Under the pieces are notes generated by a model. It was not told the DNA's origin, did not search any database, and saw only the letters and a program-made list of their open reading frames with translations. Position numbers and translations under genes: made by a program. Below, piece by piece: positions 1 through 30,153 of a stretch of 34,078 bases of DNA; positions within the stretch are counted from its first letter, which is position 1, and the number at the start of each line of letters is the position of its first letter. The DNA is from an uncultured Bacteroidota bacterium (lineage in GTDB: Bacteria; Bacteroidota; Rhodothermia; Rhodothermales; UBA10348), in NCBI GenBank assembly GCA_937877085.1, contig CALEEY010000188.1:1-34078 (forward strand), given 5' to 3'.

Positions 1-300
1 CGCCCACTGTTGTCACGGTCGTTGCCTTCTTGGCCCCTCGCATCGCGCCCACGGTCGTCACGCCCACTGTTGTCACGGTCGTTGCCTTCTTGGCCCCTCG
101 CATCGCGCCCACGGTTGTCACGCCCACTGTTGTCACGGTCGTTGCCTTCTTGGCTCCTGGCATCACGCCCACGGTTGTCACGCCCACGGTCGTCACGGTC
201 GTTGCCTTCTTGGCTCCTCGCATCACGCCCACGGTCGTCACGCCCACTGTTGTCACGGTCGTTGCCTTCTTGGCCCCTCGCATCGCGCCCACGGTTGTCA
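1..300 (-). repeat. 60-bp tandem repeat (5 near-identical copies, continuing off the left edge) encoding a 20-aa R/D/G/N-rich repeat in the RNase E/G tail
   Basis: Bases 1-60, 61-120, 121-180, 181-240 and 241-300 align with only a few substitutions. Minus-strand translation is about GRDDRGRDARGQEGNDRDNS per unit. Shorter degenerate units continue to about 400. Confidence 0.95.
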
Positions 301-2486
301 CGGTTGTCACGGTTGTCACGATCGTCGTCCTCGCGACCCCTAGCATTACGCCCACGGTTGTCGCGGCCACCATCCCTCTGGCCTCTTGTATCACGACCGC
401 CACCAATAGGGCGCCCTAGTAGTTCATCGCTCGACGAATCGGTCTCTTTGGAATCTGAGCCCCTTGAATCGCGTCCACGAGGACTATTCGCATGCGAATC
501 CGCATTGTCCCGATTCCGAGTGTTTCTGCTGTCAGGTCTTGAGCCGGAGGAACTGCCCCGTCTGTCATCCCTTTGACCGTTGGATTCTCCTCTTGAACGA
601 GCATCTTCTTGAGCGGGTGCCGCTTTTTTCGCATCCGGTTCGTTGACTGCAGCGCTTTTTACCACTGGCGTTTTAGGCTCCGATCTCGGAACCTCTTTCA
701 GCTTTGGTAGGCTTGTGATGTCCTGGTTGCTTCTGCCATCCAAAAATCGGAATGCCATCGGATCCAATGAGGACTCTTCAGCGATCTCGACCCGAACACC
801 ATACTTTATAAACCAGCCTATTTGTTTAAATAAGCCACTTTCAAGGTAGGATGCCGTGAACGGATGAAGCACCATAACCACTTTGCCGGATCTACCCGAC
901 GCCTTGAAGTTCGCAAACCAAGACTCAATGTCGTTCTTAAAATCTTGCGGCGACAGCTTAGAAACAAACTCCTGGGGTAACCGCGAGCTCGGGGCCCTTT
1001 CGTTCCAATTTCTAGGGGTCGCTTCGGTGCCTTCCGGTAAGGAAAATGTCTTGGTGATACTGGGCCGCAACCGCTGCCTGGTGATCTGGATGAGTCCAAA
1101 ATCACTCATGGTCAACACTTTCGTAACGGCTCGATCTTTCCGGAATTCAGTCTTTAGCGTCTCGTAAACTTTCCGACGGTTCCGCTCATTTCGCATGTCG
1201 ATAAAATCGACCACGAGAATGCCGCCAAGGTCACGCAATCTCACCTGTTTGCTTAAGATTTTGGCGGCTTCAATGTTTACGCGTAGCGAATTTTCTTCTT
1301 GGGACAGCCCTCGACCAGCACGACCAGAGTTCACGTCAATTACGTGCATGGCCTCGGTCGTTTCGATAAACAAGTACCCTCCAGACGGCAGATTTACACG
1401 GCTATCAAAAGCCTCCTCAACCGCCTGAGCAATGCCCGCTTTATCAAAAATAGACTCAGGTCCTTGGTGAAACTTGACATCTGCGACCATATCCGGCGCA
1501 ATAGCTTGAACGTACCCTTTAATGTTGCGGTACAGCCGTTGATCATCCAGAGTGATCCGATCATAATCGTCGGTGAACAAGTCCCGCATAATGGACGAAA
1601 CCATGTTCACGTCTTCGTGAATCACCACGGGAGCTTTGTGCCCTTGAAGAAGCTTTTCTTCTAGTTTTTTCCACTTCTCAATCAATAGGTTCAGGTCCGT
1701 ATCCAGTGCTTTCGCGCTTCTGCCGTCAGCAACGGTCCGGACAATCACCCCAAATCCTTCGGGCAGCAAGCTTCTAGCCAATGCTCGAAGCCGGCGGCGC
1801 TCTTTAAAGGATAGAATTTTCTTGGAAACGGCGACGTAATTGGCCATTGGAACCAACACCAAGAATCTTCCTGCTAAGGAAATATCCGTCGTTATACGAC
1901 TTCCCTTATTCGCAATCGGTTCTTTGCTGATTTTGACTAAAATCGGCTGATCTTTCTTTAGAATCGTCACCGGATCGACATAGGGTGCATCTTCCTGATC
2001 GTCCCGGTAGCCTCCACCATCGTGCCGGCTATGTTGGCGATGAAGGGCCGATTTTCGCTTGTCGCGGCTACCGGCATCGGCCAAATGATGATGTTCGCCA
2101 TCATCATCGTCTCCTTCATCATCATCACTTCGATTGGAATGATGATCCACCGATCCACCGGGGTGGCGTCGTTTCTTTTTAATTGGCCGCGTACTATAAC
2201 TGGCTTTAAACTTGCCAATTACAGGGGTATCAGACTGTGCATAGGAAAGCCAGTCTTCGACGTTTTCGATCAAATCAGTGAAATGGAGAAAAGCGTCTTG
2301 CTTTTGCCCAATATCTACGAACGCTGCCTGAATGCTCGGCATAATTCGCCGAATTCTACCCAGGAAGATATTCCCGATGGTGCGTTCGTGTTCTTGATTC
2401 TCGATGAAAAGCTCGACGAGCTCACCATTTTCAACAATGGCAATGCGGGTCTGCTTCCCTTTGTTAACAACAATTTCTTTCGACAT
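1..2486 (-). CDS. Ribonuclease E/G family protein, C-terminus truncated by the window edge
   Basis: Hand translation of the minus strand from ATG at 2486 gives MSKEIVVNKGKQTRIAIVENGELVELFIENQEHERTIGNIFLGRIRRIMPSIQAAFVDIGQKQDAFLHF... then ISLAGRFLVLVP, VIHEDVNMVSSIMRDLF, and FIETTEAMHVIDVNSGRAGRG...LGGILVVDFIDM. These are typical RNase E/G S1 and catalytic-domain motifs. The frame stays open to base 1, so the ORF track omitted it. Confidence 0.95.
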   Translation of the reverse strand, partial: MSKEIVVNKGKQTRIAIVENGELVELFIENQEHERTIGNIFLGRIRRIMPSIQAAFVDIGQKQDAFLHFTDLIENVEDWLSYAQSDTPVIGKFKASYSTRPIKKKRRHPGGSVDHHSNRSDDDEGDDDDGEHHHLADAGSRDKRKSALHRQHSRHDGGGYRDDQEDAPYVDPVTILKKDQPILVKISKEPIANKGSRITTDISLAGRFLVLVPMANYVAVSKKILSFKERRRLRALARSLLPEGFGVIVRTVADGRSAKALDTDLNLLIEKWKKLEEKLLQGHKAPVVIHEDVNMVSSIMRDLFTDDYDRITLDDQRLYRNIKGYVQAIAPDMVADVKFHQGPESIFDKAGIAQAVEEAFDSRVNLPSGGYLFIETTEAMHVIDVNSGRAGRGLSQEENSLRVNIEAAKILSKQVRLRDLGGILVVDFIDMRNERNRRKVYETLKTEFRKDRAVTKVLTMSDFGLIQITRQRLRPSITKTFSLPEGTEATPRNWNERAPSSRLPQEFVSKLSPQDFKNDIESWFANFKASGRSGKVVMVLHPFTASYLESGLFKQIGWFIKYGVRVEIAEESSLDPMAFRFLDGRSNQDITSLPKLKEVPRSEPKTPVVKSAAVNEPDAKKAAPAQEDARSRGESNGQRDDRRGSSSGSRPDSRNTRNRDNADSHANSPRGRDSRGSDSKETDSSSDELLGRPIGGGRDTRGQRDGGRDNRGRNARGREDDDRDNRDNRDNRGRDARGQEGNDRDNSGRDDRGRDARSQEGNDRDDRGRDNRGRDARSQEGNDRDNSGRDNRGRDARGQEGNDRDNSGRDDRGRDARGQEGNDRDNSG

Positions 2487-21544: not shown

Positions 21545-22903
21545 ATGTCAAAAGTGAAATCCATATTTGTTTGCCAGGAGTGCGGAAACGACTCTCCGCG
21601 CTGGATGGGGCAATGCCCTGCGTGCAACTCCTGGAATACCATGGTTGAGGAGCGTCAACACTCCGTGAAGCACTCGGCACGCCCCACCGCCTCTTCTAAC
21701 GGACTGGGGTCAAAGGCTCTAACGCTGGACGAAGTTCAATCGGGTGCGGAGACGCGTTTTGTGACGGGAAACGCGGAATTGGATCGCGTGTTGGGTGGCG
21801 GAATCGTACAGGGATCCGTGGTGCTGGTGGCAGGGGACCCCGGAATTGGTAAAAGTACCTTGATGACGGAATTGGGAGCTTTAGTCCCCCACGCGAAGGT
21901 GCTTTATGTAACGGGGGAAGAATCGCCTTCGCAAGTCAAAATGCGCGCGGAACGAATGGGCGTGCATTCTAAAAATTTTATGATGTTGGCCGAGACGGAG
22001 GTGGAGTCCATTATCCGCTGCGTCTTGGATGAAAAACCAACGTTGATGATTGTCGATTCGATTCAGACGGTCTTTAGATCTGACCTTCAGAGCGCCCCGG
22101 GATCAGTAGCCCAAGTTCGTGAAAGCGCGGCTGCTTTAATTCAATTATCGAAATCGACGGGCACCTCTACATTTATTGTCGGGCACGTCACGAAAACAGG
22201 TTCGATCGCGGGCCCTCGAGTGCTCGAACACATGGTAGACACGGTGCTTTATTTGGAGGGCGACAGGCACCACGTTTTCCGAATTCTTAGGGCGGTCAAA
22301 AACCGATTCGGCTCGACGAATGAGATCGGCGTCTTCGAAATGCGTTCCGCAGGACTGACTCCTGTTGAAAATCCAAGTGAGTTGTTCATAGCGGACCGAA
22401 ATGTTCTGTCCTCCGGATCCGTAGTGGTTTGTTCAATGGAGGGTACAAGGCCCATGCTCGCGGAGATTCAGGCGTTGGTTACGCCCACCTCCTATGCTAA
22501 TCCTCAGCGCACAGCTACCGGTTTCGACGCCAAACGGCTTCAAATGCTTTTGGCTGTACTGGAAAAACGTATTGGATTAGGGCTCTCAAGCTGCGACGTC
22601 TTCGTGAACGTGACGGGGGGGCTACGCCTCACTGAACCGGCGGCGGACTTGGCAATTGCTGCCGCTGTGACCTCCTCTTTTCGAGATATTCCCGTTCCGA
22701 GTCAAGCCATGATCTGCGGCGAAGTGGGCCTTGGAGGCGAAATAAGGGCGGTTTCACAATTGGATTCGCGATTGGCCGAAACCTCCAGGCTGGGATTTAA
22801 TCAAGCATTTATCCCTTCCCGGGGTCATCGAGATGCGACGCCTAAAAAATTGGAGTGCGTGGCCCTTGCTGATCTTTCTGAAATGATGGACCGACTGTTT
22901 TAG
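21545..22903 (+). CDS. radA: DNA repair protein RadA
   Basis: N-terminal zinc finger KSIFVCQECGNDSPRWMGQCPACNSWNTMVEE, GDPGIGKSTLMTELGAL, RadA KNRFGSTNEIGVFEM motif, Lon-like C-terminal domain. ATG at 21545 preferred over 21482. Confidence 0.97.
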   Translation: MSKVKSIFVCQECGNDSPRWMGQCPACNSWNTMVEERQHSVKHSARPTASSNGLGSKALTLDEVQSGAETRFVTGNAELDRVLGGGIVQGSVVLVAGDPGIGKSTLMTELGALVPHAKVLYVTGEESPSQVKMRAERMGVHSKNFMMLAETEVESIIRCVLDEKPTLMIVDSIQTVFRSDLQSAPGSVAQVRESAAALIQLSKSTGTSTFIVGHVTKTGSIAGPRVLEHMVDTVLYLEGDRHHVFRILRAVKNRFGSTNEIGVFEMRSAGLTPVENPSELFIADRNVLSSGSVVVCSMEGTRPMLAEIQALVTPTSYANPQRTATGFDAKRLQMLLAVLEKRIGLGLSSCDVFVNVTGGLRLTEPAADLAIAAAVTSSFRDIPVPSQAMICGEVGLGGEIRAVSQLDSRLAETSRLGFNQAFIPSRGHRDATPKKLECVALADLSEMMDRLF

Positions 22904-22940
22904 CCTCAAGAGCAACACCGAAAACCGGTCCCGCCCCGGA

Positions 22941-23015
22941 GCCAGCCCCGACGGCTTAACCCCAAGCCAGCCCCGACGGCTTAACCCCAAGCCAGCCCCG
23001 ACAGCTGAACCCGCG
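22941..23015. repeat. 25-bp tandem repeat x3 with a short internal hairpin, in the radA/rpiA convergent gap
   Basis: GCCAGCCCCGACGGCTTAACCCCAA at 22941-22965 and 22966-22990 (identical). Diverged third copy GCCAGCCCCGACAGCTGAACCCGCG at 22991-23015. The second copy, with its flanking A bases, contains AAGCC-(9)-GGCTT. Confidence 0.85.
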
Positions 23016-23023
23016 AAGCCAAC

Positions 23024-26974: not shown

Positions 26975-29020
26975 TTAATGATTATTAGAGGTATTTGAGG
27001 AAAGTTGATTGGAGCCGGTATGTGGCGGCAACTCTGTTGGCTCTTGTTCGACGAGTGAACAGGGTTCTAGAATATGTTCTGGAATCTGATCCAAAAATCT
27101 ACTCGGTCGTGTAAAATATTGCCCGTCGAAACGACGATACTGCAAGCTAGGATAGGATATATAAAGGTAGTCGGCTGCCCTAGTAACGGCAACATACAGC
27201 AATCGCAGCTCCTCCTCAATAGATTCGTCGTCGCCAACCGAGTAAGACGAAGGAATAATTCCATCCAATGCGTGGATAACAAATACCACTTTGAACTCCA
27301 ATCCCTTGGCGGAATGGATGGTCGACAAGGTGAGCGGCGGTTCGTCGTCTTTCACCTCCTCCACATCTATTACCGTCAATTCGATGGGATCGAGCACCAA
27401 TGAATCTAGTAATTCCGATCGCTTGGAGAATGAAAGAGTCAAGCCGACCAGATGCTCCAAGTCCTGCTCCCGCTTTTGGAAATCCTCATAGTAGACGCGC
27501 TTCAAAACCGGGAGGTAATACGACAGGATGGCCTCAATTTGACTCGTTGGGGTCGAATCGGCCTTTTTAACGGATCGTAACATCACAAAAAGAGCCCTAA
27601 GGGATTCGATGTACGCCGCAGAAAATGGTCTTTCTTTTAGCTCAAACGAGTCGTCTTGATCGGCTTCTATCCATTCAATGATCGTTCCGGCCGTCTTGGG
27701 ACCTACTCCTTCCAGCAATTGCAGAATGCGATTCCATGCCACCGTATCTCTTGGGTTCTCGATAACCTTCAGGTAGGCTAGGACATCTTTAATATGAGCC
27801 GCCTCCGCTAATTTTAGACCACCGTATTTGACAAATGGAATATTTTTTCGGCCAAGCTCAATTTCTAAATCAAACGAATTATGTCCATTTCTAAAAAGCA
27901 CCGCCATCTCTCGCAGTGATATCCCTTGTTCTCGAAACTGGAGAATGAGTTGAGCAACGAAACGGCTTTCAAACCGGTCATCGGGCGCCGGTACCAAGCC
28001 GGGTAAATCGCCTCCTACTTTCAGGGTAAAAAGCTGCTTGTCGAACTTCTTCTTCGCCTGACTCAGCAATTGATTTGCGAGGTCCAGAATGCGTTGAGTA
28101 GACCTATAATTGTGTTCGAGTTTGAGAACCCGAGCACGAGAAAACTCGGCCGGGAAGCCAAGAATGTTTTTGAAGTCCGCTCCTCTAAATCGGTAGATAC
28201 TTTGAGCATCGTCGCCGACCGCCATAACATTGCCGTGCACGGACGCCAACGCCTTTACAATTAATGCCTGCGCCCTGTTGGTGTCTTGGTATTCATCCAC
28301 CAGTACGTGGCGGCAGGTTAGTGCAATTTCACGTAGGACGGCCGGCTCTTCCGTAAAAAGTTTGAGGGTCATGATGAGCAGATCATCATAATCCATCAAT
28401 CCGTGCTCTTTTTTATACACCGAATAGTTTTCAAAGAGGAGTTCGATCTCTTTGGTAAACGGGCCGAACTGTGGATACCCTGTCTCAAGGGCTTGGTCAA
28501 TTCGAATGCCCCTGTTACGTACTGCCGAAAAAATACTCTGAAGAGTCCCTTTCCGCGGAAATCGTTTCCCATTGGTCTTGATGGAAGACGTTGCCCGGAC
28601 CACATCAATTACATCCGCTGCGTCGGAGGCATCCAAAATGGTAAAATTGCTCGGATACCCCAGTTTGGCTGCATATTGTTTTAAAATGGTTAAACAAAAT
28701 GCGTGAAAAGTCCCACCGCGCACCCTTTTACATCTTCCATCCAACAGGCCGGCCGCTCGATTGAGCATCTCGTTGGACGAACGCCGGGTAAAGGTCAACA
28801 AAACAATATGTTCGGGAGCGACCCCCGTTTCTACGAGGTAAGCGACGCGGTAAATAAGGGTTCTTGTCTTGCCCGTACCGGCTCCGGCTACGACCAACAC
28901 CGGTCCGCCCCCCATGGTAGCAACTTCGAATTGCTGCTCATTTAGCTCATCCTCGTACGCAATACTCAAACGGCTGACCGGCAGCGCTTCTTCTTTCGTA
29001 AGAATGAACCTTCGCGACAT
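26975..29020 (-). CDS. UvrD/PcrA/Rep-type ATP-dependent DNA helicase
   Basis: LNEQQFEVATMGGGPVLVVAGAGTGKTRTLIYRVAYLVE, VLLTFTRRSSNEML, VLVDEYQDTNRAQ, AVGDDAQSIYRFRGADFKNI, LEHNYRST, LSTIHSAKGLEFKVVFV, EELRLLYVAVTRA. Confidence 0.96.
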   Translation of the reverse strand: MSRRFILTKEEALPVSRLSIAYEDELNEQQFEVATMGGGPVLVVAGAGTGKTRTLIYRVAYLVETGVAPEHIVLLTFTRRSSNEMLNRAAGLLDGRCKRVRGGTFHAFCLTILKQYAAKLGYPSNFTILDASDAADVIDVVRATSSIKTNGKRFPRKGTLQSIFSAVRNRGIRIDQALETGYPQFGPFTKEIELLFENYSVYKKEHGLMDYDDLLIMTLKLFTEEPAVLREIALTCRHVLVDEYQDTNRAQALIVKALASVHGNVMAVGDDAQSIYRFRGADFKNILGFPAEFSRARVLKLEHNYRSTQRILDLANQLLSQAKKKFDKQLFTLKVGGDLPGLVPAPDDRFESRFVAQLILQFREQGISLREMAVLFRNGHNSFDLEIELGRKNIPFVKYGGLKLAEAAHIKDVLAYLKVIENPRDTVAWNRILQLLEGVGPKTAGTIIEWIEADQDDSFELKERPFSAAYIESLRALFVMLRSVKKADSTPTSQIEAILSYYLPVLKRVYYEDFQKREQDLEHLVGLTLSFSKRSELLDSLVLDPIELTVIDVEEVKDDEPPLTLSTIHSAKGLEFKVVFVIHALDGIIPSSYSVGDDESIEEELRLLYVAVTRAADYLYISYPSLQYRRFDGQYFTRPSRFLDQIPEHILEPCSLVEQEPTELPPHTGSNQLSSNTSNNH

Positions 29021-29072: not shown

Positions 29073-29191
29073 AGGGTTCTTATCACGCTAGGGTTCTTCT
29101 CGCGCTAGGGTTCTTCTCGCGCTAGGGTTCTTCTCACGCTAGGGTTCTTATCACGCTAGGGTTCTTATCACGCTAGGGTTCTTCTCGCGCT
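29073..29191. repeat. 17-bp tandem direct repeat x7 (AGGGTTCTTMTCRCGCT), iteron-like, in the divergent gap between the helicase and parA
   Basis: Seven contiguous 17-bp units starting at 29073, 29090, 29107, 29124, 29141, 29158 and 29175. They differ only at unit positions 10 (A/C) and 13 (A/G). Confidence 0.95.
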
Positions 29192-29220
29192 AGGGGGATC
29201 CAAACATCTACTTCAAATGT

Positions 29221-29229: not shown

Positions 29230-29346
29230 GACGCACGCTAGATAGGTAGTAAGAAAGGCCCCTTCTTCATAAATTTCGGATAGGAAGACCGCGCATCGGT
29301 GCCTACTTGCCCGCAATGCTGGATCAAATTCAAACACCTCTGCCGA

Positions 29347-30153
29347 ATGGGAAAAATCATAGCCGTAGCCAATCAAAAGGGCGGAGTAGGTAAGACGACG
29401 ACGGCTATTAACTTGGCCGCCTCCCTTGCTGCTATGGAGCATCCGACGCTCCTAATTGATTTTGATCCCCAAGCAAATGGTACTTCCGGCGTTGGAATTG
29501 ACCCAAAAAGCGTAAAAGCTTCCACATATGAGATTTTAATCGGCACCGTTCCTACGGAAGATGCCATTCTTGTAACCGATACTCCATACCTCTCGCTCAT
29601 TCCAAGCCATATCAATTTGGTTGGTGCGGAGATCGAAATGGTGGAAATTCCTGACCGGGAGCGCATGTTGCGCAAGGCTTTGCACAGCGTGAGAGATCGA
29701 TTTGATTTCATCATTCTCGATTGTCCACCCTCCTTAGGCCTTTTGACCCTCAATTCGCTCACGGCGTCCGATTCGGTTTTAATACCTGTTCAAGCGGAAT
29801 ATTTCGCGCTCGAAGGTTTGGGGCAATTGCTCAATACCATCAAGTTGGTTCGACAGCACTTGAATCCCGACCTAGAAATTGAAGGGGTGGTATTGACTAT
29901 GTTTGATGCCCGGCTTCGACTGGCCAATCAAGTGGCTTCTGAGGTTCGCAGATACTTCGGTGAAAAGGTCTTTAACACCATTATCCAGCGTAACGTAAAA
30001 CTTTCGGAGGCCCCCAGTTTTGGGAGGCCCGTATTGCTGTATGATGCAACCAGCACAGGCTCCAGAAATTATATTGGATTAGCTCGGGAAGTGCTTCATG
30101 CCAATCAAGCGTATTTATCTCAACTAGCCGCCTCTCAAGCAGAATCTATTTAA
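29347..30153 (+). CDS. parA: ParA/Soj-family chromosome partitioning ATPase
   Basis: [65 protein letters not shown] at 29347 preferred over 29299. Confidence 0.96.

Follow-up and report, generated by a model that had tools for sequence, protein, structure and literature searches.

The noncatalytic regions of RNase E in the gamma-Proteobacteria conserve disorder, compositional bias and tandem repeats, and the repeats have been proposed as the origin of the docking motifs found in these tails (PMC4435900). RNA binding and focus formation in Pseudomonas aeruginosa depend in part on mixed-charge RE[E/D]R repeats, which act together with two arginine-rich motifs and vary in number between species; the C-terminal PNPase-binding motifs have dissimilar sequences in different species (PMC11964227). 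The PNPase site of the E. coli enzyme also lies at or near the C-terminus (PMC4435900). In alpha-proteobacterial tails of the Caulobacter type, BR-bodies are driven by alternating charge blocks, and such bodies have been proposed to be widespread (PMC12691583). When the Zn-link of the E. coli enzyme is disrupted, the oligomer is destabilised and activity is lost (reviewed in PMC12510024). Insertions into the S1 domain are a known kind of feature, comprising 50–150 residues in alpha-Proteobacteria and plants (PMC4245959).

The stretch of DNA analysed here (the window, 34,078 nucleotides) is the entire contig C188 of a 332-contig, 90%-complete genome. By RNase similarity its relatives belong to the Rhodothermota, order Rhodothermales, a lineage for which a literature search found no study of mRNA decay. 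The genome contains one copy of the RNase E/G gene (Table 1). The assignment to this family, first made by a sequence-only reading of the window, is borne out by matches to PF10150 (E = 1.6e-92; 310 bits, cut-off 25.5) and TIGR00757 (E = 1.7e-130; 436 bits, cut-off 326), by the alignment with E. coli RNase E, and by a structural match. E. coli RNase E is the top PDB match of the AlphaFold model (E = 4.8e-38), and the DNase I and S1/5′-sensor domain entries match the model at TMt 0.79; the overall TM-scores are low, for which the disordered parts and the domain arrangement are partly responsible. Residues D384, N386, D427, R250 and T251 are invariant among 35 homologues and have aligned counterparts in E. 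coli RNase E. We take the DVNSG and DFID motifs and R250/T251 to be equivalent to the E. coli catalytic and 5′-sensor residues, partly from established knowledge and partly from the alignment. The window protein falls short of the full-length equivalog models for RNase E and RNase G, so neither name is assigned. The protein nevertheless has the long noncatalytic disordered region that sets RNase E-type enzymes apart from the short RNase G, with low pLDDT and at least 463 residues after the small domain in the joined protein (see below), and domain scores and fold place it in the RNase E/G family despite the absence of a Zn-link.

Table 1. Positions of the RNase E/G gene, its domains and its repeat array in the window.
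Feature	Position	Strand	Basis and remarks
RNase E/G gene, 828 codons	3..2486	minus	ATG start at 2486, open at contig end; PF10150, TIGR00757
Charged low-confidence S1-domain insertion, about residues 98-165	1992..2195	minus	Sequence and pLDDT
Catalytic RNase_E_G domain, residues 203-472	1071..1880	minus	Pfam; DVNSG 384-388, DFID 427-430, 5′-sensor-like R250/T251 invariant in alignment
Low-confidence linker, residues 470-509	960..1079	minus	pLDDT; where Zn-link CPxCxGxG is expected, motif absent
Folded small domain, residues 513-583	738..950	minus	AlphaFold confidence
Disordered C-terminal tail within the window, residues 609-828	3..662	minus	R 22%, D 19%, G 15%, no aromatic residue
Degenerate units of this array	301..398	minus	TRF and copy comparison; includes a 9-bp DNR run at 290-320
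Five near-identical 60-bp (20-codon) copies	1..300	minus	TRF and copy comparison; GRD[D/N]RGRDAR[G/S]QEGNDRD[N/D][S/R]

Within the window, TRF reports a period-60 array at positions 1–370 with 6.1 copies and a score of 545. Codon shuffles of the tail (n = 200) score no higher than 60, so the array reflects neither chance nor mere composition. The sequence-only reading had described five near-identical copies followed by degenerate units, placed in frame in a disordered tail, running off the left edge and recently expanded, and on each of these points it holds. The decayed units extend to about position 400, and the array shares the frame of the minus-strand RNase E/G reading frame, which a 60-bp period preserves. 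The window being an entire contig, the gene is indeed open at its end. The expansion is species-specific: the 27 family genomes compared include one of this species, and the unit occurs in that genome and is absent from the other 26. Disorder is indicated by pLDDT values below 50 almost throughout residues 597–828 (597–616, 618–623, 625–650, 652–668, 670–692 and 694–828), and for a congener whose RNase is full-length (L041) the AlphaFold model shows similarly low confidence through to the end of the protein. The five copies differ pairwise by 0–5 of 60 nt. Copies 61–120 and 241–300 are identical and the two between them differ from both by 3–5 nt, a pattern that fits block duplication or conversion, or else could be an assembly mosaic. 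Nested periods of 15 bp and 9 bp inside the 60-bp unit (TRF) suggest that it has grown from shorter GRDNR/DNR steps.

The full gene, which the sequence-only reading had proposed to obtain, continues on contig C272 of the same genome, and this contig supplies the missing 3′ end. It is likewise terminated by the array repeat, which it shares with the window in an exact overlap of 51 nt, and it codes for two further units and then 214 A/K/P/E-rich residues; the encoded tail ends in PPSRHRLEKYDFSKAA plus about 30 residues. The gene order in three congeners (L039–L041) is citrate synthase, RNase, a 246-residue protein, a 96-residue protein and a metallo-beta-lactamase-fold hydrolase. The first of these genes is the citrate synthase of the window, and the last three follow the RNase on C272. 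The joined protein has at least 1072 residues (828 + 260 − 16, by one frame-consistent path through the overlap), of which at least 463 lie beyond the small domain. Since the array ends both contigs, its copy number as assembled is a minimum, and the assembled array may be collapsed or mosaic.

To compare tails between genomes, we set their boundaries with the post-insertion catalytic core only. In the sampled Ignavibacteria and Cytophagales-like genomes no more than 20 residues follow the catalytic part; the Balneolales mostly have 50–130 and the family of the window mostly 150–440. A 153-residue stretch of the core is 84–95% identical among congeners, whereas their tails are 21–41% identical and, [S/T]RHRLEKYDFS apart, have hardly any invariant column. 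Tandem arrays are present in 18 of the 26 relatives' tails, although these are not 26 independent samples, some loci closely representing the same lineage. The units differ by species (for example RDDQR, QRSEGG/QRNEGG, RSGGRSRSEDSS, RGRGRSGDDEN, SDRNQGGQ and ERQQPRDERQQAQA), and their periods are all multiples of three. Arrays make up 13.9% of tail DNA, against 0.07% of the other (flanking) DNA in the same loci. Tandem repeats are thus the rule in the tails of this family, with a different unit in each species. Almost all family tails have an arginine-rich, balanced composition (FCR 0.32–0.45, NCPR 0–0.15), and disorder and composition persist while the tail sequence turns over, short motifs excepted. 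The tree of the catalytic core retains 23 rows with weak inner support, and no claims on tail gain or loss are drawn from it.

Conservation in the tails of the genus is almost confined to a short motif near the end. RHRLEKYDFS is identical in all five available C-termini of the genus and has a single match in this genome, on C272. Tails of other genera in the family end in NRFMKIDLRS, NRFQRLDFR or VYNIDLRSNKG. In 12 of 23 tails the final 40 residues contain the pattern [ILVYF]D[LF][TSRK] (shuffles: mean 0.02, maximum 1), which is missing from the other 11; because it was defined after the tails had been inspected, its probability is overstated. The link between genera is therefore suggestive only, and the conservation of RHRLEKYDFS within the genus does not depend on it. 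AlphaFold assigned no confident structure to the motif by itself, and Pfam found none of the known partner-binding sites (PNPase, helicase, enolase; E. coli motifs) in the tail. A PNPase gene is present in the genome. In other bacteria, too, PNPase sites lie at or near the C-terminus of RNase E.

On balance, we favour a reading in which the RNase E-type enzyme carries a degradosome-type disordered hub, whose repeat would act as an RNA-binding spacer and whose end motif would dock a partner, with selection acting on composition. The 60-bp minisatellite would then be a recent, species-specific, in-frame expansion inside a disordered C-terminal scaffold, probably generated when direct repeats slipped or recombined unequally. 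Selection would act on the length and the arginine-rich, charge-balanced, disordered composition of the tail, not on its sequence. The repeat most likely serves as a multivalent, weakly RNA-binding spacer, and the conserved end motif PSRHRLEKYDFS of the A/K/P/E-rich distal part most likely recruits a degradosome partner. PNPase would be the first candidate, as its known sites are at or near the RNase E C-terminus. This assignment of spacer and docking site is made because there are two precedents (PMC4435900, PMC11964227). The absence of net charge in the repeat counts against the spacer, as its affinity for RNA could be weak. The lack of a confident structure for the end motif, the definition of its wider pattern after inspection and the 11 tails without that pattern likewise weigh against the reading.

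The closer of the two precedents is the REER region of Pseudomonas (PMC11964227), which like the window tail has tandem, well-mixed repeats of arginine and acidic residues in a disordered C-terminal region, and which seems a better-matched precedent than the Caulobacter BR-bodies. The Pseudomonas unit has four residues, RE[E/D]R, whereas that of the window has 20, GRDNRGRDARGQEGNDRDNS, and includes aspartate, glycine and asparagine. RNA binding has been demonstrated for the REER repeats and is proposed here for the window repeat. With the gamma-proteobacterial noncatalytic region (PMC4435900) the tail shares disorder, compositional bias, tandem repeats and embedded short conserved motifs. Both tails are also bipartite, arginine-rich proximally and AEPV-rich distally in the gamma-Proteobacteria, R/D/G-rich proximally and A/K/P/E-rich distally here. 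In contrast to the gamma-proteobacterial enzyme, the window protein has no E. coli partner motif recognisable by Pfam, ends in another C-terminal motif and lacks the Zn-link. Disordered RNase E tails renewed by repeats are a known class, and the tail is one of them; the missing Zn-link and the lineage-specific end motif make the enzyme that carries it a variant. The rule that disorder and composition are kept while sequence is renewed by tandem repeats is thereby extended from proteobacterial RNase E to a distant, little-studied phylum. The family also offers a set of related tails with dozens of independent in-frame expansions open to comparison, and the conserved end motif and the loss of the Zn-link lead to two specific predictions on the organisation of mRNA decay in the lineage.

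The strongest competitor of the spacer and docking reading is a neutral array: in-frame slippage would be tolerated because the tail is disordered, and the repeat would contribute nothing but length. The units are completely different between species, the repeat zone contains no conserved column in the congener alignment, and nonsynonymous codon differences equal or exceed synonymous ones in most pairs of copies, all of which would be expected of such an array. However, the retention of the arginine-rich balanced composition in almost all family tails and the persistence of long tails in many genera argue against it, and we regard neutrality as possible but rather unlikely.

It is less probable still that the tail drives condensates of the Caulobacter BR-body type through alternating charge blocks. 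In favour of this reading, the enzyme is an RNase E whose disordered tail is long and charged, BR-bodies have been proposed to be widespread, and the distal part of the tail is blockier (kappa 0.20) than the repeat. The repeat itself is patterned in the opposite way. With a charged fraction of 0.56 and a net charge near zero, it has a kappa of 0.04, its local net charge is flatter than in shuffles (z = −2.7), and its composition includes no aromatic residues. The tail of the window as a whole has z = −1.1 against shuffles, so that the alternating charge patches of a BR-body scaffold are not seen, and most relatives' tails show no more charge segregation than shuffles. The E. coli tail, for comparison, has a kappa of 0.22 and z = +4.5. 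For the repeat, whose charge is almost perfectly mixed, the Caulobacter charge-block mechanism is not supported. The sequence-only reading had suggested an analogy to BR-bodies; its general idea of a degradosome-type C-terminal region is supported, but the analogy as it was drawn is not. Caulobacter and Sinorhizobium RNase E (PMC12691583, PMC4245959) do share the disordered C-terminal tail and the charged disordered S1 insertion with the window protein, but they have charge blocks and a conserved Zn-link CxxC (PMC12510024), where the window protein has a mixed-charge repeat and no Zn-link.

In the comparison of the window with loci L010–L064, none of the 42 distinct RNase E/G sequences from Rhodothermota has the Zn-link motif CPxCxGxG; the motif is present in E. 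coli and in 51 of 52 other sequences (Balneolales, Ignavibacteria and Cytophagales-type). It is a usual rather than a universal feature of the family. A literature search found no report of an RNase E without a Zn-link, which is weak evidence of novelty. In the AlphaFold model, pLDDT falls below 50 in the linker (470–509) and nearly throughout the S1 insertion (98–164). The insertion is rich in D, H and R and includes DDDEGDDDDGEHHH, and this stretch is a possible candidate for metal binding. Three loci (L062, L063 and L064) have no C-terminal tail and instead carry several hundred charged, R/G/D/E/S-rich residues in the S1 domain. Their S1-loop insertions contain IDLT/IDLS motifs similar to the one found at the C-terminus in other genera, which looks as though the C-terminus and the S1 loop were alternative sites for the disordered region. 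Like the missing Zn-link and the S1 insertion, we regard this as a lead. A bolder and, in our estimate, improbable proposal would be that this Rhodothermota branch, on losing the Zn-link, passed quaternary organisation or control of activity to disordered segments (the S1-loop insertion and the repeat-built tail) with a lineage-specific [I/L/Y]-D-[L/F] docking motif movable between the two sites.

An assembly artefact or a strain chimaera might be suspected from the position of the array at the ends of two contigs of a short-read-type genome, but in-frame decayed units lie on both of its flanks, the C272 side is syntenic with relatives, and comparable arrays occur inside unbroken contigs of relatives; such an origin is very improbable, and the doubt is limited to the exact copy number. 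The least credible reading gives the repeat a role at the DNA level, such as a binding site, or in an antisense gene. It could appeal to the plus-strand frames, all of which are open through the array, but a period divisible by three keeps them open in any case, and the arrays of relatives, whose periods are always divisible by three, encode similar amino-acid compositions in unrelated DNA units. Chance as the origin of the array is rejected on the codon shuffles, and antisense coding and a function as DNA alone are rejected on the relatives' arrays.

Two further tandem repeats lie between genes of the window. One has a 25-bp unit in 3.2 copies at 22940–23021, between reading frames ending at 22903 and 23024. 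The other, with the 17-bp unit AGGGTTCTTCTCACGCT in 7.2 copies, occupies 29073–29195, between the reading frames 26975–29020 (minus) and 29299–30153 (plus).
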